Origin: Nitrospira sp. UW-LDO-01
GTDB taxonomy: Bacteria; Nitrospirota; Nitrospiria; Nitrospirales; Nitrospiraceae
Assembly: GCA_002254365.1 (NCBI GenBank)
Contig: NIUT01000113.1
Span: forward strand, 1 to 38,870
Direction: 5' to 3'
Length of the DNA stretch: 38,870 nt
Below are positions 30,344 through 38,748 of the stretch, one piece after another (the stretch's first letter is position 1; the number at the start of each line of letters is the position of its first letter). The notes under the pieces were generated by a model. It was not told the origin of the DNA. It saw only the letters and a list, made by a program, of their open reading frames with translations, and ran no database searches. Both the position numbers and the translations under genes were made by a program.

Positions 30344-30559
30344 TCACGGAGTGAACAAACGGCCGTTCATCATCCAGTGAACGCCGATACTGGCCACATA
30401 CCCCAACGCGATCACCCATGTCCATTTCAGGTGGGAAAAGAAGGTATAGACACCTCGTGCTTGTCCCATGAGGGCCACGCCGGCAGTCAAGGGCCTTCGA
30501 TCAAATATCGCTTCTAGCGGGCAAATCGCATCAGCTATCAAATAACAAGCGGCGGTCAC
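30344..30559 (-). CDS. Small putative membrane protein after the SulP-carbonic anhydrase gene
   Basis: 71 residues starting at GTG, 8 bp after the SulP-carbonic anhydrase stop on the same strand. The C-terminal half contains one likely membrane helix (WTWVIALGYVASIGVHWMM) and a short amphipathic segment before it. I do not recognise a family. Its tight spacing suggests co-expression with the transporter; function unknown. No clear ribosome-binding site. Confidence 0.5.
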   Translation of the reverse strand: MTAACYLIADAICPLEAIFDRRPLTAGVALMGQARGVYTFFSHLKWTWVIALGYVASIGVHWMMNGRLFTP

Positions 30560-30567
30560 GCTCTATT

Positions 30568-32808
30568 CTATATCCTCACCTCGCCTAGCCCATCTTCTAC
30601 TAAAAAATCGATGCCTCCTGTAGAAATGTCATACATCGCACCGATAATGGCAATGCGTCGTTCGCAAACCAAGTTGTCAAGCGTCCGACTCTGTTGGCGT
30701 AGTTCCTTGACTACGCGCAGGACATTTTCTCTGGCAACAGCATCTGCGATCACTCCGGCATCAGGCGAAGCCGGTTTCACAGCCGGCTGATTGGGAATAC
30801 CTCCTACAGACCGCTGGATCTCGCTCACAATAGCATCTAAATGCTGACATCCTGTCGCGTCGGCAACCGTTAGGTGTGAGCCTAGGAGTTTCACAGCGGC
30901 CGAGACCGCCCCACATCCGGTATGCCCTATCACGATCATGAGTTTTGCCCCTGCCACCGCACACCCGTATTCTGCACTCGCCAACACCTCTCGACTTGTG
31001 ATGTTGCCCGCCACACGGATACTGAAAATGTCGCCCATGCCGAGATCGAAGATCAATTCCACAGGGGTACGTGAATCGATGCAACTGAGTGCGACGGCCA
31101 ACGGATGTTGGGCCGCTGCCGTGGCCTGAACCTGGCGACTATAGTCTCGGGTCAGGCGACGACCGGTGCGGGCCCGCTCGTGACCGTCCTTCAGAATCTG
31201 CAGGACCTGCTGCGGTGTGATGGCCTGTTGAAGTTCACGGGTCGAATAATCCACATAGTGAATCTGGTCCTCAAAGTGATACTCACTCCGAAACCCGATG
31301 AGACTCACCTCGACACCGTGGGCTGGTCCGGTTTGATCTTTAAAGTCTCGAATCAAGTCCAGCACATCCGGATCAATATAATCCGTGCTTCGCGCATCAA
31401 GAAGTACACGGCCATTCCTGGGTACATCATTCAACGCTTTGGCAAGAGCGGCGCGATTCAGGACACTTACCTGGTTGGCCAGTTCGATATGCACGACGTC
31501 ACCACCAAGATGCCTCTCGACCAACCGATGCACTGGGCGACGCATGTTGCTATTAAGAATAAACCCAATGGCCACGATCAGCCCAATCACGATGCCGATC
31601 AAAAGATCAGTGAACACGATAGCAGTCACGGTTGCCGCGAACGGAATAAACTGGTATCGGCCCTCGCTCCACATTTGCTTGATAAGAGCTGGGCTGGCCA
31701 GTTTAATACCGGTCACTAACAAAATAGCCGCTAGGCAGGATAAAGGAATGGTATTCAACCAGGTCGGAATGAGCGGAACACTGGCGAGAAGCAGGATGCC
31801 GTGGATGATTGCAGCCAGCTTTGTTTGGCCGTCCGCATTCACATTCACCGAACTCCGGATGATCACGGAGGTGATTGGGAGCCCGCCGATCAATCCGCAC
31901 ACCACATTCCCGATGCCTTGCGCACACAGTTCTTGGTTCGGCGGTGATGTGCCTTGGCGTGGATCAATCCGGTCAACAGCCTTGAGATTCAGCAAGGTTT
32001 CAAGAGAGGCCACAAGAGCCAGCGTCATCCCCGCGGTATAGACTGCCGGATTCATCCATTGCGAGAAGTCTGGTCGAGGAAGCAGTCTGAACAGCTCAGC
32101 AAGGTTGCCCGCCACCGGCACCTGCACCAGATGGCTTGGCTTGATGATCCATGGCTCGCCGAGATGTTCGAACCACAATCCGCCCCCAATACCGAATAAG
32201 ACCACGGCGACAGGAGCGGGAAAGAGAGACGTCTTCAACGGCTTCCAATTGTCCCAGAGGAGGAGCAGTGCCACGGACAACAGACCAACAACGGCAGCCC
32301 CCAGCTGAAAATATCCGAACATGCGGAAGAGCTCGGAAAATGTCGTTTCGAGATCCGGCTGGGAGAAGGACAGGTCTCCTTCCGGATCGGCGTCATGCCC
32401 GACGAGGTGGGGAATTTGTTTAAAGATGATGATCACGCCGATCGCGGCCAACAACCCTTTGATGACACTGGAGGGGAAAAATTCAGAGATGAACCCTCCT
32501 CTGGCGACGCCGAGACTAATTTGGATCATCCCGGCAAGGATCAGAGCCATCAGAAAGGCGGAGAACGAACCGAGTGAGAGGATTTGCGAGGCCACGACCG
32601 CCGACAGTCCCGCAGCCGGGCCGCTCACACTGGTATGGGATCCACTGAGGAGTCCCACCACAGTCCCGCCGACGATTCCGGCCACCAATCCTGACATTAA
32701 TGGAGCACCGGAAGCCAAGGCGATCCCCAGGCAGAGCGGTAGCGCCACAAAGAACACCACAAGACCTGCCTTCGTATCGGCCAGGACGGAAGAAACCGTA
32801 CTACTCAT
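30568..32808 (-). CDS. SulP anion transporter fused to STAS and beta-carbonic anhydrase
   Basis: 746 residues. The SulP membrane domain occupies about 1-420 (KAGLVVFFVALPLCLGIALA near the start, GSHTSVSGPAAGLSAVVASQ after it). A STAS-like domain (HIELANQVSVLNRAALAKAL, RVLLDARSTDYIDPDVLDLI) lies at about 435-545. A beta-carbonic anhydrase follows from about 565, with zinc ligands in ALSCIDSRTP (Cys near 575) and IGHTGCGAV (His and Cys near 628-631) and the CxDxR dyad intact. Fusions like this are proposed to couple bicarbonate or other anion transport with CO2 hydration. For an autotroph this would help supply inorganic carbon. Substrate remains unproven. Confidence 0.93.
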   Translation of the reverse strand: MSSTVSSVLADTKAGLVVFFVALPLCLGIALASGAPLMSGLVAGIVGGTVVGLLSGSHTSVSGPAAGLSAVVASQILSLGSFSAFLMALILAGMIQISLGVARGGFISEFFPSSVIKGLLAAIGVIIIFKQIPHLVGHDADPEGDLSFSQPDLETTFSELFRMFGYFQLGAAVVGLLSVALLLLWDNWKPLKTSLFPAPVAVVLFGIGGGLWFEHLGEPWIIKPSHLVQVPVAGNLAELFRLLPRPDFSQWMNPAVYTAGMTLALVASLETLLNLKAVDRIDPRQGTSPPNQELCAQGIGNVVCGLIGGLPITSVIIRSSVNVNADGQTKLAAIIHGILLLASVPLIPTWLNTIPLSCLAAILLVTGIKLASPALIKQMWSEGRYQFIPFAATVTAIVFTDLLIGIVIGLIVAIGFILNSNMRRPVHRLVERHLGGDVVHIELANQVSVLNRAALAKALNDVPRNGRVLLDARSTDYIDPDVLDLIRDFKDQTGPAHGVEVSLIGFRSEYHFEDQIHYVDYSTRELQQAITPQQVLQILKDGHERARTGRRLTRDYSRQVQATAAAQHPLAVALSCIDSRTPVELIFDLGMGDIFSIRVAGNITSREVLASAEYGCAVAGAKLMIVIGHTGCGAVSAAVKLLGSHLTVADATGCQHLDAIVSEIQRSVGGIPNQPAVKPASPDAGVIADAVARENVLRVVKELRQQSRTLDNLVCERRIAIIGAMYDISTGGIDFLVEDGLGEVRI

Positions 32809-32919: not shown

Positions 32920-33528
32920 TTAGAACCGGCTGGCACCTCGGGTAGGAAACTGTTTTCTGACCACGCTCTTCACAGGTGTTTCAAGTGGGGCTACCAGAGT
33001 GGGACAGCCCTCTGCCCCGTATGTCTCGCCCATATACTCGGCAGCGATTCCTTTCTCATGACTGACCTGTCGTGTCATCCATCCCGTAAAGAACCCTGTT
33101 TGCATCTCAAGATCCAGAGTACCCAGTGCCGTACATGCTCGTGGCCGAATGGTAAAGGCGGTCGGCAACACGGTGTGCCAAATGCCTCGTGTACCTGCCA
33201 AACTGATGTCGGTGACACGATAGGAACCGACTGGGAGTTGCACCGCGAACGGGCCATCAAGCGGAAGATGCCCGATCATCAAGCGAGTCCCCGTCGCTTC
33301 ATCTTCAACCCACCATTTCATCTCTTTCGGCCAACTCAACCCTTCCGATGGTGACTTTCCATCCCGAGTGAGGTGAATCTTACCCAGTAACAGTCCGTGG
33401 TCTTCATCCGGGATCGCAATCTGTGATGTTGGGAGCGGAACTCTGAGGCCTGCACACCCCAGCATCACACTGACAGCCCAGATGGAGAGACCGATAACGA
33501 AACCATGATAACGCGTATTCCTGTTCAT
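32920..33528 (-). CDS. Putative lipoprotein, paralogue of the next upstream gene
   Basis: 202 residues with a lipoprotein signal (SIWAVSVMLGC). The mature protein is beta-rich and unrecognised. It shares with the 33542-34153 product a clear pattern: LLLG near the start, KEMKWWVEDE, GPFAVQLPVGSYRVT, VLPTAFTIRPRACTALGT and GFFTGWMTRQVSHE. A ribosome-binding site AAAGGG lies 9 nt upstream and the gene follows its paralogue by 13 bp, so the pair is one operon. The LPVGSYRVT segment resembles loops in small secreted beta-sandwich domains (PEGA/carboxypeptidase-regulatory type), but that is only suggestive. Confidence 0.75.
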   Translation of the reverse strand: MNRNTRYHGFVIGLSIWAVSVMLGCAGLRVPLPTSQIAIPDEDHGLLLGKIHLTRDGKSPSEGLSWPKEMKWWVEDEATGTRLMIGHLPLDGPFAVQLPVGSYRVTDISLAGTRGIWHTVLPTAFTIRPRACTALGTLDLEMQTGFFTGWMTRQVSHEKGIAAEYMGETYGAEGCPTLVAPLETPVKSVVRKQFPTRGASRF

Positions 33529-33541
33529 GAGATTGGCCCTT

Positions 33542-34153
33542 TCATTCCTGCGCCTCTGAGCGGTCCAGTCTGACTGGTTGCTTCACCGATGACGTCAGGG
33601 GAGCCTTGGAGATCAAACAACGATTTCCTCCGATCAGTTGATCATGATTCGCACGACTGATTTCCTGCTCATGAAGCACATGGCGAGAAATCCATCCAGT
33701 TACAAACCCCACTCGCATCTGAAGCATTGAGGTTCCTAGCGAGGTACATTCCCATGGCCGTATCTCAAAGGCCGTGGGCAGGACGCCGTGCCAAAACCCC
33801 TCAGGGCTAGGGAATCTCATGGTTGTCACACGGTAGGATCCGACTGGAAGTCTCACGACAAATGGGCCATGCGTAGGCACAAGTATTGTGAGAAACCGTT
33901 TGCCCTCAGTGACTTCTTCAATGTGCCATTCCATCTCCTTCGAGTAAGTAAATTCCTGGGCGTGACCTTGCTCATTATGGCTGACGTTCGTGACGAGGTG
34001 ATGTGTTCCAAGCAACACACCGTAATCGTCATCCGCTTGCACCCTCTCCAAAACTGAGTGCGGAACGACAACGGCAGTAGAACCAAACGACAAATCGGCT
34101 TGCAAGATCAACAGAGCTACGAGGCACATAGACCGACATACCGAGCAATTCAT
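33542..34153 (-). CDS. Exported protein, paralogue of the adjacent lipoprotein
   Basis: About 203 residues with a signal peptide (CRSMCLVALLILQADLSFGS) and no good lipobox. The body aligns along most of its length with the neighbouring lipoprotein: VLLGTHHL, KEMEWHIEEVTEGKR, GPFVVRLPVGSYRVT, GFWHGVLPTAFEIRPWECTS and GFVTGWISRHVLHE. The duplicate differs in membrane anchoring, which suggests division of labour. Function is unknown. AAGGAG lies 6 nt before the ATG at 34153; a longer frame from 34243 lacks a site. Confidence 0.75.
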   Translation of the reverse strand: MNCSVCRSMCLVALLILQADLSFGSTAVVVPHSVLERVQADDDYGVLLGTHHLVTNVSHNEQGHAQEFTYSKEMEWHIEEVTEGKRFLTILVPTHGPFVVRLPVGSYRVTTMRFPSPEGFWHGVLPTAFEIRPWECTSLGTSMLQMRVGFVTGWISRHVLHEQEISRANHDQLIGGNRCLISKAPLTSSVKQPVRLDRSEAQE

Positions 34154-34354
34154 GACACGCTCCTTCTCTACAAAAACACCCCACCTCATTCTGAACGATA
34201 GACGGCATACCAACTTCCCGCTGGTAGCCGAATGGTCATTCAAACTCTCTGATCATTTTGACACGCAACGAATTCATCGCTACGTGAATGCCATCAGAAC
34301 GGGACGCATCACGCAGAATGTCTCGACGTTGTCATGTTGAGTGAACGCGACGTA

Positions 34355-34654
34355 CTAGAGAGAAGGAGGATGGAAGAGGGATGTCGTCAAAATTGGTAAC
34401 CGTCGCACCGGATGAGATTCAGTGACCATGGTAAGAAGTCTCGGCCGCTCCGACTCAAGTGAGGGAGATACGGTCGTATGATCTTCCGAGACAGGCTCCA
34501 CCTTCACGAGCGCATCGGAACTCAGCAGGTCCACGAGCGTGGCTGGTACTCCCAGCATCTGTACAACCACACAGATGCAGAGCAAGAGGACAAGACCTCC
34601 CACCGTTGTGACGCAACATGGAAAACATGATGTCGTTCGGTTCCCTAGGCTCAC
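34355..34654 (-). CDS. Small single-pass membrane protein, member 1 of a two-copy local family
   Basis: 99 residues from a GTG start. One membrane helix (GGLVLLLCICVVVQMLGVP, about 19-37) is followed by TLVDLLSSDALV and a polar, Ser/Pro-rich tail ending PILTTSLFHPP. The helix-exit motif QMLGVPxTLxxLLxSDxxV and the terminal FHPP recur in the protein at 36365-36685. I recognise no family. No good ribosome-binding site, so the start is uncertain; the paralogy is the main evidence that it is a gene. Confidence 0.65.
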   Translation of the reverse strand: MSLGNRTTSCFPCCVTTVGGLVLLLCICVVVQMLGVPATLVDLLSSDALVKVEPVSEDHTTVSPSLESERPRLLTMVTESHPVRRLPILTTSLFHPPSL

Positions 34655-35193
34655 AAAATCAATCTAACATACGAATGACAGGCTGTCACGTACGCACTTG
34701 TGACAATTGTCGTGAGCAGCCGTTCTTGTCTCGCCCGATGATAACCCCACCACCCATCCCAATCTATAGAAGGGCGACTCCTCGCCTATCAAATGCCCGG
34801 TGAATCCCTCAATAACCAATTGATCGTCAACCTCCGCACAAAAATTGAAAATGCCCTATCGGTATGGATGAAGGCGACGGGATCGTTACGGGAGGGACTC
34901 GCCGTGAGGGAACGGGCCTACGCGACGGAAATACCGTCGCGTAGGCCGCCCCAAGTCAGGATGTCACCGTGCGGGCCGTAAACTCCCGGACGAGACTGAA
35001 CAGCCTGAGCTGGAACAGGATGCTCAGCCATCGCATTGGCCCTTGGTCGCTTTCTAAACAGGGATTGGTCTAACTATCTTTCCCCCACTCGTCAATTGGT
35101 AATCCTTTCTACCCATCGCAGCCTCATCAGGAGATAACGGTTCAAGGATGATGAACCGAGGGTCTCATGATCTTGAACCGATGCCTCAGGTCG
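34655..35193. other. Intergenic region with a strong hairpin
   Basis: 539 bp with no convincing gene. It contains a perfect 14-bp inverted repeat at 34915-34947, described separately. Small open frames in it show no family-like sequence. Confidence 0.55.
34915..34947. repeat. Perfect 14-bp inverted repeat hairpin
   Basis: GGCCTACGCGACGG, loop AAATA, then CCGTCGCGTAGGCC. No T-run follows on either strand, so it is not an ordinary intrinsic terminator. It may be a REP-like element or a structured RNA segment. Confidence 0.7.
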
Positions 35194-35538
35194 TCAATTC
35201 CGCCTCTGCATGCGCTTCGACTTCTCTTTTCCTTCCTCCACATCAGTAACCGTCCCCATGTGGGCATCAATGTGGATCTCCATGACCCGTTTCTCCGGCG
35301 TGACGACTTCGACTTCCCATATCAATCTGTCGTGTTTCTGCTCAAGCCCAGCTTGAATGACTGTCCCTGACACTTTCTCCCGTGCCAATGTGATAGCCTC
35401 ATCGATCGGTACTTTTGCTGAAGCGGCCTTCTCGACCTTATTCGGTTCCGCACAGGTGTACTCCGTCATGGTCACGGCTCCGGCGGTTACCACAAGCACG
35501 ATCAACCAAATCCTTGTAAACAATCCCTTGCACATCAT
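35194..35538 (-). CDS. PepSY-domain exported protein
   Basis: 114 residues with an N-terminal signal/anchor (FTRIWLIVLVVTAGAVTM) and a PepSY-like domain: VPIDEAITLAREKVSGTVIQ, AGLEQKHDRLIWEVEVVTP and EIHIDAHMGTVTDVEEGKEK, then a basic tail. PepSY domains are thought to inhibit peptidases or bind ligands at the cell surface. GGAGA precedes the double ATG at 35538/35535. It follows a small hypothetical gene by 26 bp on the same strand. Confidence 0.88.
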   Translation of the reverse strand: MMCKGLFTRIWLIVLVVTAGAVTMTEYTCAEPNKVEKAASAKVPIDEAITLAREKVSGTVIQAGLEQKHDRLIWEVEVVTPEKRVMEIHIDAHMGTVTDVEEGKEKSKRMQRRN

Positions 35539-35564
35539 TTTCTCCGCAACCTCACCGTGAAGTC

Positions 35565-35762
35565 CTACGCCCGCCGCTCACGCAATGTTTGCCTCGTCCT
35601 TTCGACATAGTCTCTGCGCATCGTATCAATCTCCTTCGGGCTAATCCTCACAAGGTAGCCACATCCGGAGTCGGGGCCGATATATATCGACCCAAGTAGT
35701 GGGGCGCGGAAGAAGACAAAGTTGGCAATCTCCGCTTCGAAGTACTTCGTGCTGAATCGCAT
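35565..35762 (-). CDS. Small hypothetical protein upstream of the PepSY gene
   Basis: 65 residues from the ATG at 35762 (a TTG at 35783 adds seven). It reads RFSTKYFEAEIANFVFFRAP, LLGSIYIGPDSGCGYLVRIS and a basic, helical tail. No signal peptide or known family. GAAGGA and GGAGG precede the ATG. Close spacing to the PepSY gene suggests co-transcription. Moderately likely to be real. Confidence 0.45.
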   Translation of the reverse strand: MRFSTKYFEAEIANFVFFRAPLLGSIYIGPDSGCGYLVRISPKEIDTMRRDYVERTRQTLRERRA

Positions 35763-35882
35763 AGACCTCCAATCCTTCCCCAAATCCAGTTCTACTGCCT
35801 GTACAGGCTCGCGTCGGTGGCCGTATGACGCCTTCTCTCCTGCACAGCGCCCGTTGTTGTCATCGTCGGTTCATCGCCAAGC

Positions 35883-36209
35883 TCAATTCGTTGCCCTCAC
35901 CGTTTGTAAAATGGCTGAGCCCCAATGATTCCGTTTATCGGATGCAGGCAATTGGGGATCCAATAATCGCTGAGCTCTGTCCTCGTTCTTGCCTACCGCA
36001 CAACCAGCTCGTTCGGTGCTCCGACCGACCTCCTCCATACTGAAATTGAGCAAGGCTTCCTCGACCAGCCTCTTCTCAATTCCAATCCCGACGCGTTGAC
36101 TCACAATCTGTCCGTACGCTCCATACTCGGCAACTGCCATGGGCACATTCAACATGCCCAGCAACACTACCCACAGCACTCCATTTCCCAACGTACCAAT
36201 CTCTGTCAC
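35883..36209 (-). CDS. Small hypothetical exported protein
   Basis: 108 residues from a GTG preceded by AAGGGG. The first 27 residues look like a signal peptide (NGVLWVVLLGMLNVPMAVA, cleavage before EYGAYG). The rest is polar and unrecognised. The hydrophobic stretch VVLLGMLNVPMAV vaguely echoes the QMLGVPxTL motif of the two small membrane proteins nearby, but the tails do not match. It may or may not be coding. Confidence 0.42.
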   Translation of the reverse strand: MTEIGTLGNGVLWVVLLGMLNVPMAVAEYGAYGQIVSQRVGIGIEKRLVEEALLNFSMEEVGRSTERAGCAVGKNEDRAQRLLDPQLPASDKRNHWGSAILQTVRATN

Positions 36210-36364
36210 CTTTCCCCTTCACTCCGGCCATAATGACCGGATAGTACGATATTTCGAACTTGCAGAAACATTCACACCGTATCACTGGCATGGCACAGCG
36301 ACACGCCACGGGTGAACGTCCCAGCCGACACGTGTACCGCCAATTGATAGGACCCTAACGAAGA

Positions 36365-36685
36365 CTACGATTGAGGAGGATGAAAGACTGCGGTCGAGAA
36401 GATTGGATGATACCCGGGAGATTGACTCTCCACACTACTAGAACGAGAGTGGCTCGGAACACTCGGTTCCGGTATGACCGGAGGAATAGAGAAGCCTTCA
36501 GAGAGTGATTCCACAGGAGTATCCGACGTCAGGAGACCAAGCAAGGTGACGGGAACTCCCAGCATCTGTAACAGCACGCCAATACAAACAAGGCCGATCA
36601 GAATGACTGCACCTGTTCCCACAGGCAAGATACGAACCGTCCTTTGCTTAACCTGACTCCCGGTAGGGAATATACTCTGACTCAT
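36365..36685 (-). CDS. Small single-pass membrane protein, member 2 of a two-copy local family
   Basis: 106 residues: a basic N-terminus (QVKQRTVRILPVG), one membrane helix (GAVILIGLVCIGVLLQMLGV), then TLLGLLTSDTPVESLSEGF, a Pro/Ser-rich segment and a C-terminus PIFSTAVFHPPQS. It parallels the 34355-34654 product in order, size, helix-exit motif and terminal FHPP. At DNA level both carry ACAGATGCTGGGAGT at the helix end. No known family recognised. The basic side before the helix predicts a cytoplasmic N-terminus and an outward tail. Confidence 0.68.
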   Translation of the reverse strand: MSQSIFPTGSQVKQRTVRILPVGTGAVILIGLVCIGVLLQMLGVPVTLLGLLTSDTPVESLSEGFSIPPVIPEPSVPSHSRSSSVESQSPGYHPIFSTAVFHPPQS

Positions 36686-37325
36686 ACGTGATGGGCAACC
36701 TATATAGAAACAGTTTTCATCCTCACTAAATCGATCAACGAGATGGCGATGGCCAGGATGCTAAATCGCCATGATCTCATTCGTCAATCAGTTACGTCTT
36801 GTGTGTTGGTACTGTCTCTTCAGGTTGCTTTCAGCTTACGCGCATGCCAGGTGTTGGGAAGGCCCTAGACAATGCTCTTCACATGCACCGAACAGGTACT
36901 ACAGCCATCCTATGCGATAGCCATCGGAATAGGCCTTTGTCGGTCTCGATATCTGAATTGAGCTATCGTGTCCTGCAAACACCACTGAGCTCATGGAGCA
37001 TGATCCATCGCTTCTCCCTAGAGATTTCTGATAGAAGGTTGTATAAGGGATTTAAGTGAAGTATGAATACCTCCAGACAGTTATGCGTCGTTATTCATCA
37101 TTAGCGGCTCCAGTCCAAGAGCGTAGAATGCACTGCTCCTCCAGCCATGTTATCGGTTCTCGTCCTCGAGACTTACTGGCCTTTGTCTACCGCCACGGAT
37201 CGGATCCTCCAAAGAACCGCTGAAGTCTCAGCTCGATTCATATTAGTCAGCCCCCTCTTCTGAGAAGAGCCGATGTAGGCTTTAGCAGAAAGGTGTTGGT
37301 CTTTCTAACACAAGGGAATCATTAC
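36686..37325. other. Intergenic region between divergent gene sets
   Basis: 640 bp between the leftward small membrane gene and the rightward cupredoxin-like lipoprotein gene. It must hold promoters for both directions, but I see no clear -35/-10 pair or RNA structure. Open frames here look non-coding. Confidence 0.5.
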
Positions 37326-37751
37326 ATGTTGATCCACGGCATGATATGGGTGGCTCTATTTGTGTCCACCCTCACCGGTTGTGTGACATCGTCTCCCAGA
37401 GATCGACTTCCACGCATTCACGACATTCAGATTGACAGCCAGGATTCGATTACTCCCGCTGAATTGTATGCCGCCGTCGGAGAAGAAATTCGGTGGCACA
37501 ATGCGCTCTCCGTTCCCATTCACCTGGGATTGCTCGGGATTCATCCGATAGCGGGAACAGGTTGCAACAAAGGATTCAAGACGTGGTTCGGAACGATGAA
37601 GGACATGGTCACCATCCCACCTGGCGACTATGTCAGCCTCTGTTTTCTCCGAGCTCGAACGGTCCGGTATAATATCTGGACGAATCTCGCCGAGCCGGTC
37701 CGCTCCATGAGTCCGACAGCGGTGATTCATCTTGATGCGACGGCCTCATGA
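37326..37751 (+). CDS. Cupredoxin-like lipoprotein
   Basis: About 141 residues with a good lipobox (STLTGC) after a short signal peptide. The mature part has AVGEEIRWHNALSVPIHLGL, the strand pattern of cupredoxins (V-G-x-x-I-x-W-x-N), then GCNKGFKTWFGTMKD and VTIPPGDYVSLCFLRARTVR. The metal ligands of a standard type 1 copper site are not clearly in place, so copper binding is uncertain. AAGGGA lies 8 nt before the ATG at 37326; an ATG at 37293 lacks a site. It precedes another exported copper-type protein by 43 bp, probably in one operon. Confidence 0.72.
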   Translation: MLIHGMIWVALFVSTLTGCVTSSPRDRLPRIHDIQIDSQDSITPAELYAAVGEEIRWHNALSVPIHLGLLGIHPIAGTGCNKGFKTWFGTMKDMVTIPPGDYVSLCFLRARTVRYNIWTNLAEPVRSMSPTAVIHLDATAS

Positions 37752-37794
37752 GAATGATAGATATCGACAACAACGGATCCTGTGAAAGGAGGCA

Positions 37795-38748
37795 ATGATG
37801 AAGAGAGTTACATGGCATGGTCTGATGGTCGCAGGTGTCTGTGCGTTCAATCTCGCGGTTACGCCTGGCAGCGAAGCCTATGAAGAAATATTTTTGGCTG
37901 AAGGCGGATCGCTTTCTGGAACGGTTCACCTCCACGGCAAAGTCCCGATGCCAAAAGGGTACAATCTCACAACCGTGCCGGACCCGGTCTATTGTGGTCG
38001 GATTTCTGATGGGAGAGGGTGGAGGTTGCTACAACCGTTTGACGTCGGATCACAGGGAGAGTTCCGCAACGTCGTTGTGTATCTCGACGGCATCGAGAAG
38101 GGTAAGTCGTTCGGCGAGTACACACCGCCGAGAATCGAAGCCATTGATTGCCGTTTTATGCCGTATATCACACTTGTTCGCGATCTTCACAACGTAATGG
38201 TGGTGAATATGGACCCTGCCTTACACGACATTCAAGCCTATGAGACATCGAACCTCGGACCTCGCGTCTTGTTCAATATTCCATTACCGATCAGCTCACG
38301 ATATCCTCGCGAAGCCGGGTTGAGCGCGCATGTCCACAAGCACTACGAAGGAGCCACCGTGATTCAATCGGTCAAGATGACCAAAGATCGGAAGATTTTC
38401 ACCATGCAATGCGGGTTTCATCCGTATATGGAGAGTTGGGCGCTGGTCACCGACCATCCATATTACGCAGTGGCCGATCACGAGGGACGATTCCAGCTTA
38501 CCGACATTCCCCCCGGTACCTATAAGTTGAAAGTCTGGCATCCATATACTGGGGACAAGATTGAGCAGACCGTCACAATTGAGCCTAATACGCAGTCAAG
38601 CGTGGATGTGACGATTGAAGCGCCGACCGGCCGGCTCTATGCCAATCAAATGGTTGAAAACGCCTATGTCCGATACACGATTACGGAGGACGTGCAGAGT
38701 CAAATCGTACCGACATTGGAGAAGCAACGTCTCAACGAAGGACCGTAA
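37795..38748 (+). CDS. Exported cupredoxin-like protein with C-terminal carboxypeptidase-regulatory domain
   Basis: 317 residues with a signal peptide cleaved near GSEA28. The N-terminal part (about 35-222) resembles a cupredoxin: His144 in DPALHDIQAY and Cys206/His209/Met212 in MQCGFHPYMESW form a plausible type 1 copper set. A carboxypeptidase regulatory-like beta-sandwich follows (about 222-275: YYAVADHEGRFQLTDIPPGT then YKLKVWHPYTG). Proteins of this build occur in Nitrospira-like and other chemolithotrophs and could act in periplasmic electron transfer or copper handling. GGAGG precedes the ATG pair at 37795/37798. It converges on the hflC-like gene. Confidence 0.85.
   Translation: MMKRVTWHGLMVAGVCAFNLAVTPGSEAYEEIFLAEGGSLSGTVHLHGKVPMPKGYNLTTVPDPVYCGRISDGRGWRLLQPFDVGSQGEFRNVVVYLDGIEKGKSFGEYTPPRIEAIDCRFMPYITLVRDLHNVMVVNMDPALHDIQAYETSNLGPRVLFNIPLPISSRYPREAGLSAHVHKHYEGATVIQSVKMTKDRKIFTMQCGFHPYMESWALVTDHPYYAVADHEGRFQLTDIPPGTYKLKVWHPYTGDKIEQTVTIEPNTQSSVDVTIEAPTGRLYANQMVENAYVRYTITEDVQSQIVPTLEKQRLNEGP

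Follow-up and report, generated by a model that had tools for sequence, protein, structure and literature searches.

The window, a 38,870-nucleotide stretch of DNA from Nitrospira sp. UW-LDO-01 (contig NIUT01000113.1), carries two minus-strand genes for small membrane proteins at 34355-34654 and 36365-36685, denoted members 1 and 2, respectively. A preliminary description placed both open reading frames at the right coordinates and correctly ~1.7 kb apart, and omitted their strand. The genome to which the window belongs is 3.9 Mb in size and is of the comammox type as amoA is present. A third copy of the gene resides on contig C175 of the same genome. The locus comprises the following features.

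30568..32808, minus strand: SulP transporter fused to a beta-carbonic anhydrase (CA), the last gene of the run
32920..33528, minus strand: second copy of the 'lip2' family, exported, with a Cys that could be lipidated
33542..34189, minus strand: gene downstream of member 1, an exported beta-rich protein of the 'lip2' family whose nearest relatives usually follow clade-B members
34190..34354, minus strand: spacer between member 1 and the next gene, 165 nt, conserved in clade B, with a pyrimidine-rich start typical of the family
34355..34654, minus strand: clade-B member of the family (member 1), 99 aa, beginning with GTG and ending with TAG at 34355-34357
34364..34375, minus strand: FHPP of member 1, codons TTC CAT CCT CCT, two codons before the stop
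34553..34615, minus strand: predicted transmembrane helix (about residues 14-34) of member 1, placed through the alignment to member 2
34661..34689, minus strand: promoter-like GTGACA-N17-TAGATT of member 1, ending 6 nt before the GTG start in a leaderless arrangement
35194..35538, minus strand: PepSY-domain protein, further downstream of member 2
35883..36209, minus strand: gene downstream of member 2, a 108-aa exported protein of the 's112' family
36210..36364, minus strand: spacer between member 2 and the next gene, 155 nt, containing the clade-A block CTGGGACGTTCACCCGTG
36365..36685, minus strand: clade-A member of the family (member 2), 106 aa when read from the ATG at 36685, ending with TAG at 36365-36367
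36374..36385, minus strand: FHPP of member 2, codons TTT CAT CCT CCT, two codons before the stop
36560..36622, minus strand: predicted transmembrane helix of member 2, residues 22-42, AlphaFold2 pLDDT about 70-90
36669..36698, minus strand: promoter-like TTGCCC-N18-TATATT of member 2, inside the 5' end of the annotated open reading frame

Two further regions of the window contain genes with counterparts elsewhere. A 71-aa open reading frame at 30344-30559 (minus strand) groups with CitMHS transporters of other genomes, where these follow the family, and looks like a remnant of such a CitMHS gene. On the plus strand, 37293-38748 codes for two proteins, one of 152 aa that is exported and one of 317 aa that has a carboxypeptidase-regulatory-like domain, and both of these families recur near members in other genomes.

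The resemblance between the two window proteins (QMLGVPATLVDLLSSDALV...PILTTSLFHPP and QMLGVPVTLLGLLTSDTPV...PIFSTAVFHPP for members 1 and 2, respectively) was confirmed to lie far beyond chance: a single BLASTP comparison gave 38% identity across 96 residues with an E value of 2e-11. The FHPP-tailed, ~100-residue membrane proteins of Nitrospira are a real and undescribed family, as had been proposed. No convincing profile match was found in Pfam, NCBIfam, PHROGs or PADLOC, where hits were scattered, confined to single members and of E 0.004-0.1, and no PDB sequence matched the family. Members were detected in 56 of 79 Nitrospira genomes, with ~150 matches and up to 12 per genome; the 23 genomes that yielded no match were mostly small ones, and most genomes sampled were drafts. 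Single-sequence searches recovered members from 29 of 59 relatives and from one of 11 genera. When a profile built from 66 members was applied to a sample of the phylum (396 genomes, 169 genera), the family was identified in 55 genomes and five genera, all of one GTDB family, Nitrospiraceae, to which the four genera other than Nitrospira also belong, and it was found in no genome of the sample outside that GTDB family. As amoA was observed in 49 of the 79 Nitrospira genomes, and the family occurs both with and without this gene, a link to ammonia oxidation was rejected. Decayed copies split over two frames were noted at L027:4846-5130 and L131:6592-6876, which points to gene loss within the paralogue array. 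Proteins of 1145-1150 aa in several relatives that matched the helix region are MFS / acyltransferase / AMP-ligase fusions, and these matches were taken as chance similarity between membrane helices.

The family consensus reads LVxxLCxCVVxQMLGxPVTLLxLLxSDxxxESxSEDFS ... LPxxxTSVFHPPxx. Residues Q40, G43, F101, P103 and P104 (member 2 numbering) are invariant in the 66-member alignment. The earlier view of a single-pass membrane family with selection on both the helix and the tail was supported. Among 119 family tails, the FHPP phenylalanine is present in 117 and replaced by leucine in two, the next position is His in 89, Arg in 29 and Gln in one, and both prolines are present in all. The region between helix and tail had been described as variable, which holds for its sequence but not for its length: the distance from the conserved Gln to the Phe is 60-62 in 112 of 114 members, and exactly two residues follow the Pro-Pro in 84 of 114. 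A conserved CxC (C34, C36) lies inside the transmembrane segment, about 68 residues before the last Pro. The AlphaFold2 model of member 2 (mean pLDDT 60) contains one confident helix at residues 22-42, a break at GxP, a short helix at 47-53 and a tail without order. The stretch before the helix has a mean net charge of +1.5 and that after it one of -3.4, and the N-terminal side is the more positive in 99% of members; this positive-inside bias argues for an N-in/C-out topology. Comparison of 56 pairs with 70-97% identity gave a median dN/dS of 0.32, indicative of purifying selection on the protein. Lack of homologs in close relatives and lack of a synonymous bias had been named in advance as evidence against the family; homologs are present and the family is kept there, and synonymous changes exceed non-synonymous ones. 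Between member 2 and its nearest relative (L129), dN/dS was 1.17 on few changes, and this member may be relaxed. Several other assignments of the protein were considered and rejected. A cleaved signal peptide that would release a secreted peptide was discarded on reading of the sequences, which display no typical AxA, a conserved Pro after the Gly, and hydrophobicity that extends past QMLG. The conserved Cys pair lies outside any lipobox, which dismisses a lipoprotein, and the Arg in 29 of 119 members at the position of the tail His dismisses a role for the latter as metal ligand.

The family tree was built from 89 columns and many of its forks are unresolved. A clade of 24 rows that includes window member 1 usually is followed by lip2, a clade of seven is followed by a 131-aa gene and in most cases then by CitMHS, and a clade of 27 that includes window member 2 is found mostly between a 126-aa membrane gene and s112 or s150 genes. 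Based on their positions in this tree, window members 1 and 2 are old paralogues from different clades. The preliminary description had suggested that the two copies might be parts of one envelope complex. This suggestion was not supported, as the copies belong to different well-supported clades and many genomes have a single copy; elsewhere members lie mostly at different places and beside different genes, often with promoters of their own. A related proposal, in which the window proteins act as subunits or anchors within an envelope complex that includes the neighboring exported proteins, draws on lip2, for which all 30 hits that scored over about 240 bits were within about 2 kb of a family member and mostly just downstream of clade B. 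However, lip2 is present in 32 of 79 genomes compared to 56 of 79 for the family, one clade alone is tied to it, and the window copies are of ancient divergence in a family that many genomes hold as a single copy. This proposal is considered improbable. The tandem lip2 genes (32920-34189) have no Pfam match, and the lip2 structure was predicted as a beta-sandwich of moderate confidence (pLDDT 63) with one Foldseek hit under 1e-3 at TM 0.32, from which no functional clue was taken.

Ion transporters also recur beside the family. SulP-CA, CitMHS, P-type ATPases, RND proteins and Na/H and Na/Ca exchangers are recurrent neighbors, and CitMHS lies within about 2 kb of a member in six of 15 genomes examined, in several arrangements and with two different CitMHS paralogues. 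These associations, along with the purifying selection on the protein, speak for a function of the mature product itself. In this reading, it would be a bitopic microprotein of the inner membrane that binds and tunes ion transporters encoded nearby (SulP-carbonic anhydrase, CitMHS, P-type cation ATPases and Na+/H+ exchangers), in which the helix with its C, Q and G residues would be the contact and FHPP a periplasmic docking peptide. Polytopic proteins were encoded within 2.5 kb of 55% of members compared to 25% of background points, but the excess shrank to an unconvincing 0.39 vs. 0.25 when averaged over 16 synteny groups. Thus, a general enrichment of transporters that was clear in raw counts became weak when synteny groups were weighted equally, and was set aside. 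Moreover, no single partner is common to all members, and transporter tuning leaves the nucleotide biases at the gene end, described below, unexplained. It is regarded as the main rival of the arrest reading set out below and as less likely than not, although decidedly more probable than the envelope complex.

The 3' ends of the genes possess signals beyond the encoded peptide. The two prolines of the tail are specified by CCT in 149 instances, CCC in 48, CCG in 23 and CCA in 10. The CCT share of 65% compares with 24% (203/833) for other Pro codons in the same genes and 15% for the background, and third-base pyrimidines at these positions reached 86%, where genome codon usage predicts 42% (z = 13.6 with members counted as independent, although counts of related sequences are not so). 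Other codons of the tail had third-base pyrimidines in 52% of cases with 51% expected (z = 0.8), so the codon choice is specific to the Pro-Pro. By eye, the CCT bias was weaker in other genera. Among 106 non-redundant members, the stop codon is TAG in 65 (61%), TAA in 30 and TGA in 11 (10%), whereas background genes have 105 TAG (25%), 94 TAA and 215 TGA (51%). Position +4, immediately past the stop, is occupied by C or T in 93 of 106 members (88%) compared to 48% for background. The 25 nt after the stop have a C minus G value of +0.17 and 66% pyrimidine vs. 0.00 and 49%, respectively, and the signal ceases near +25. Members that lack a same-strand gene downstream retain FHPP and also these biases, which therefore cannot depend on one fixed downstream partner; in the group that faces a convergent GH15 gene, 11 of 12 Pro codons are CCT. 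Selection acts on the nucleotides of the gene end too, at the Pro codons, the stop codon and the post-stop bases, which a purely structural tail does not explain.

A conserved 3' end that acts mainly as RNA or DNA, for example as a Rho-loading site or by pairing with the Shine-Dalgarno sequence of the next gene, with the peptide secondary, would accommodate both the pyrimidine-rich bases that continue past the stop and the complementarity of CAUCCUCCU to GGAGGAUG. However, purifying selection extends along the whole protein, F, P and P stay invariant despite variation in the codons that specify them, and the bias marks only the Pro-Pro and, weakly, the His, without spreading over the tail. This explanation is deemed very improbable, even more so than an envelope complex. 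The same confinement of the third-position bias discounts a Rho site in the coding part and leaves the post-stop stretch as the sole evidence for such a site.

The gene order downstream also is atypical. For 95 of 118 members, the credible gene that comes next shares their strand, as it does for 396 of 656 neighboring genes, and same-strand gaps of ≤20 nt occur in one of 95 members (median gap 197 nt) but in 28% of neighboring genes; small unsupported open reading frames were removed for these counts and the comparison ignores relatedness. Within the spacer, a block from +40 to +60 is kept in clades A, B and C with a pairwise identity of 0.67-0.71, higher than at the third codon positions of these genes (0.53-0.65) and in the far upstream flank (roughly 0.35-0.5). 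RNAalifold analysis of two small sets of related spacers gave z values of -5.0 and -3.7 relative to column shuffles. An 18-sequence alignment of the clade-A spacer disclosed no pair of a consensus RNA structure, and covariation in a hand-drawn spacer stem did not rise above that of a shuffled control.

At the 5' end, strong sigma-70-like matches precede 51 of 95 non-redundant members compared to 19 of 327 conserved neighboring genes with starts as called, and for 39 of these 51 only 6-9 nt separate the end of the -10 element from the start. A 5-base Shine-Dalgarno sequence was noted for one of 95 members vs. 20% of conserved neighboring genes. Gene calling was home-made (longest open reading frames) and start sites were inferred; with any possible start allowed, a promoter match 5-9 nt upstream was found for 46 of 90 members and 45 of 1230 other genes. 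From the position of these promoters, about half of the members probably are expressed from leaderless mRNAs. The true start of window member 2 (36365..36685) is uncertain, as the promoter-like element lies inside the annotated open reading frame and the codon 7 nt past this element is GGG where related copies have ATG. Genes for a ~421-aa exported protein (L168, L176, L178, L179, L191, L192) and a 284-aa protein (L172, L173, L175, L177, L194) also have a sigma-70-like promoter directly before the ATG. Since similar promoters precede these other conserved genes, the arrangement is not unique to the family, and it suggests that leaderless mRNAs are not rare in Nitrospira.

The combination of a membrane helix, a conserved C-terminus and nucleotide biases at the gene end recalls peptides that arrest the ribosome during their own translation. 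CruR of Bordetella pertussis (bp2923, DUF2946, PF11162) has an N-in/C-out transmembrane segment or signal in >95% of homologues, RAPP three residues before the end with fixed spacing, a stretch in which C exceeds G that includes CCT codons, and Rho-dependent termination before gene 2 (PMC9426467). The family is akin to CruR in its small size and proposed leader role, N-in/C-out helix, near-C-terminal Pro-Pro, fixed spacing from an upstream element to the Pro-Pro, C/T-rich RNA near the gene end, and spacer before the next gene. In contrast, the family has CxC inside the helix whereas CruR has CxxC about 45 residues before its motif, the tail is F[H/R]PP instead of RAPP, and the family, for which regulation is proposed by analogy, probably is leaderless, has up to 12 paralogues, and precedes other downstream genes. 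None of 66 members matched the PF11162 (DUF2946) profile at E 0.1. In a published description of arrest peptides (PMC12992588), a Pro-Pro close to the C-terminus of a small secretory or membrane protein figures as a trait, and PepSY genes are among those enriched downstream; a PepSY gene also lies downstream of window member 2. More generally, arrest peptides are recognized by an export signal, a conserved C-terminus and a spacer of >30 residues (PMC10987492), and the family displays these traits (criteria ii-iv therein), with an export signal or transmembrane segment. The Sec/YidC arrest peptides, including those with the RQH motif as well as ApdA, ApdP, ApcA and SecM (PMC10987492, PMC10951233), likewise have an export signal or transmembrane segment, a spacer of >30 residues and a C-terminal Pro motif. 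However, the residue three before the last Pro is F in the family and R, Q or H in RQH peptides, and the FHPP family is restricted to Nitrospiraceae. The motif [R/Q/H]-[A/G]-P-P near the C-terminus was not found in the 119 aligned tails.

MifM of Bacillus subtilis is about 95 residues in length with one N-terminal transmembrane segment and an arrest region near the C-terminus, about 60 residues after that segment. It monitors membrane insertion, stalls at several acidic residues and controls yidC2. The family matches MifM in size, the single N-terminal helix and a C-terminal motif about 60 residues past it, and differs in possessing F[H/R]PP instead of a stall at acidic residues and in its other downstream genes. 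The FxxYxIWPP stalling peptides reportedly were obtained by random screening in the Buskirk laboratory. They resemble the family tail in that Pro-Pro comes after aromatic residues and the eighth position ahead of the last Pro holds a large hydrophobic residue, but are artificial, lack a transmembrane segment, and have W before the prolines where the family has H or R. FHPP was not among the arrest motifs in the literature searched, and the known ones are RAPP-like; accordingly, the family is classed as arrest-like but outside both CruR and RQH.

The reading preferred here is that members of the family are membrane-anchored arrest peptides that would function in the manner of CruR or MifM and use F[H/R]PP as the arrest signal. 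A probability of about 45% is assigned to it. It is favored because the choice of Pro-Pro codons, the choice of stop codon, the post-stop pyrimidines and the rarity of short gaps are not predicted by a purely structural tail, whereas they would be expected of a protein that pauses at the Pro-Pro during its translation. Many of the genes would be transcribed from their own promoters as leaderless mRNAs, as promoter position suggests, and the N-terminal helix would insert N-in/C-out, consistent with its flanking charges. At the conserved stretch LPxxxTSxF[H/R]PP, which ends two codons ahead of the stop, the ribosome may pause or arrest owing to the two slow Pro codons and to the upstream residues that then occupy the exit tunnel. 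With about 60 residues between it and this site, the helix would by then have emerged from the ribosome and lie in the membrane, such that, as in MifM, its insertion or the state of the membrane could relieve the arrest. As in CruR, what happens to the pyrimidine-rich RNA around the stop codon and to the 100-250 nt spacer would depend on whether the ribosome remains or departs, and this may set the expression of the next same-strand gene, be it for an exported protein, SulP-carbonic anhydrase, a CitMHS transporter or others.

A number of observations weigh against arrest. At least 17 members, including those that face the convergent GH15 gene, have no good close same-strand downstream gene, so cis control of the next gene cannot be their role; no argument against cis control is stronger than these members, in which pausing may serve the insertion of the protein itself or which may carry another function. 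The downstream genes vary from clade to clade, and secA, secDF and yidC were absent from the identified frequent neighbors in the gene maps. In addition, the excess of C over G within the open reading frame is explained in part by amino acid composition, and the conserved tail could equally be a protein-binding motif. The weaker CCT bias in other genera, the departure of F[H/R]PP from the published [R/Q/H]-[A/G]-P-P motif, the absence of a consensus RNA structure in the clade-A spacer and the lack of excess covariation in the hand-drawn stem also count against arrest.

Even without arrest, a widespread and unannotated membrane protein family of Nitrospiraceae is a useful new entry, and a codon bias restricted to a Pro-Pro next to the stop may help to single out candidate arrest peptides. 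Should arrest be the correct reading, it would add an arrest motif, probably leaderless translation, and the case of one family multiplied within a genome and attached to different genes, and it would be the first for a phylum that has no arrest peptide in the literature searched. More tentatively still, a lineage-specific set of leaderless arrest peptides, expanded to up to 12 per genome and bearing the new motif F[H/R]PP, might couple the state of the inner membrane to genes for bicarbonate, sodium and cation transport and for exported proteins in nitrifying and comammox Nitrospira. The arrest reading would provide testable regulators of ion and bicarbonate handling in nitrifiers that are environmentally important and hard to manipulate.
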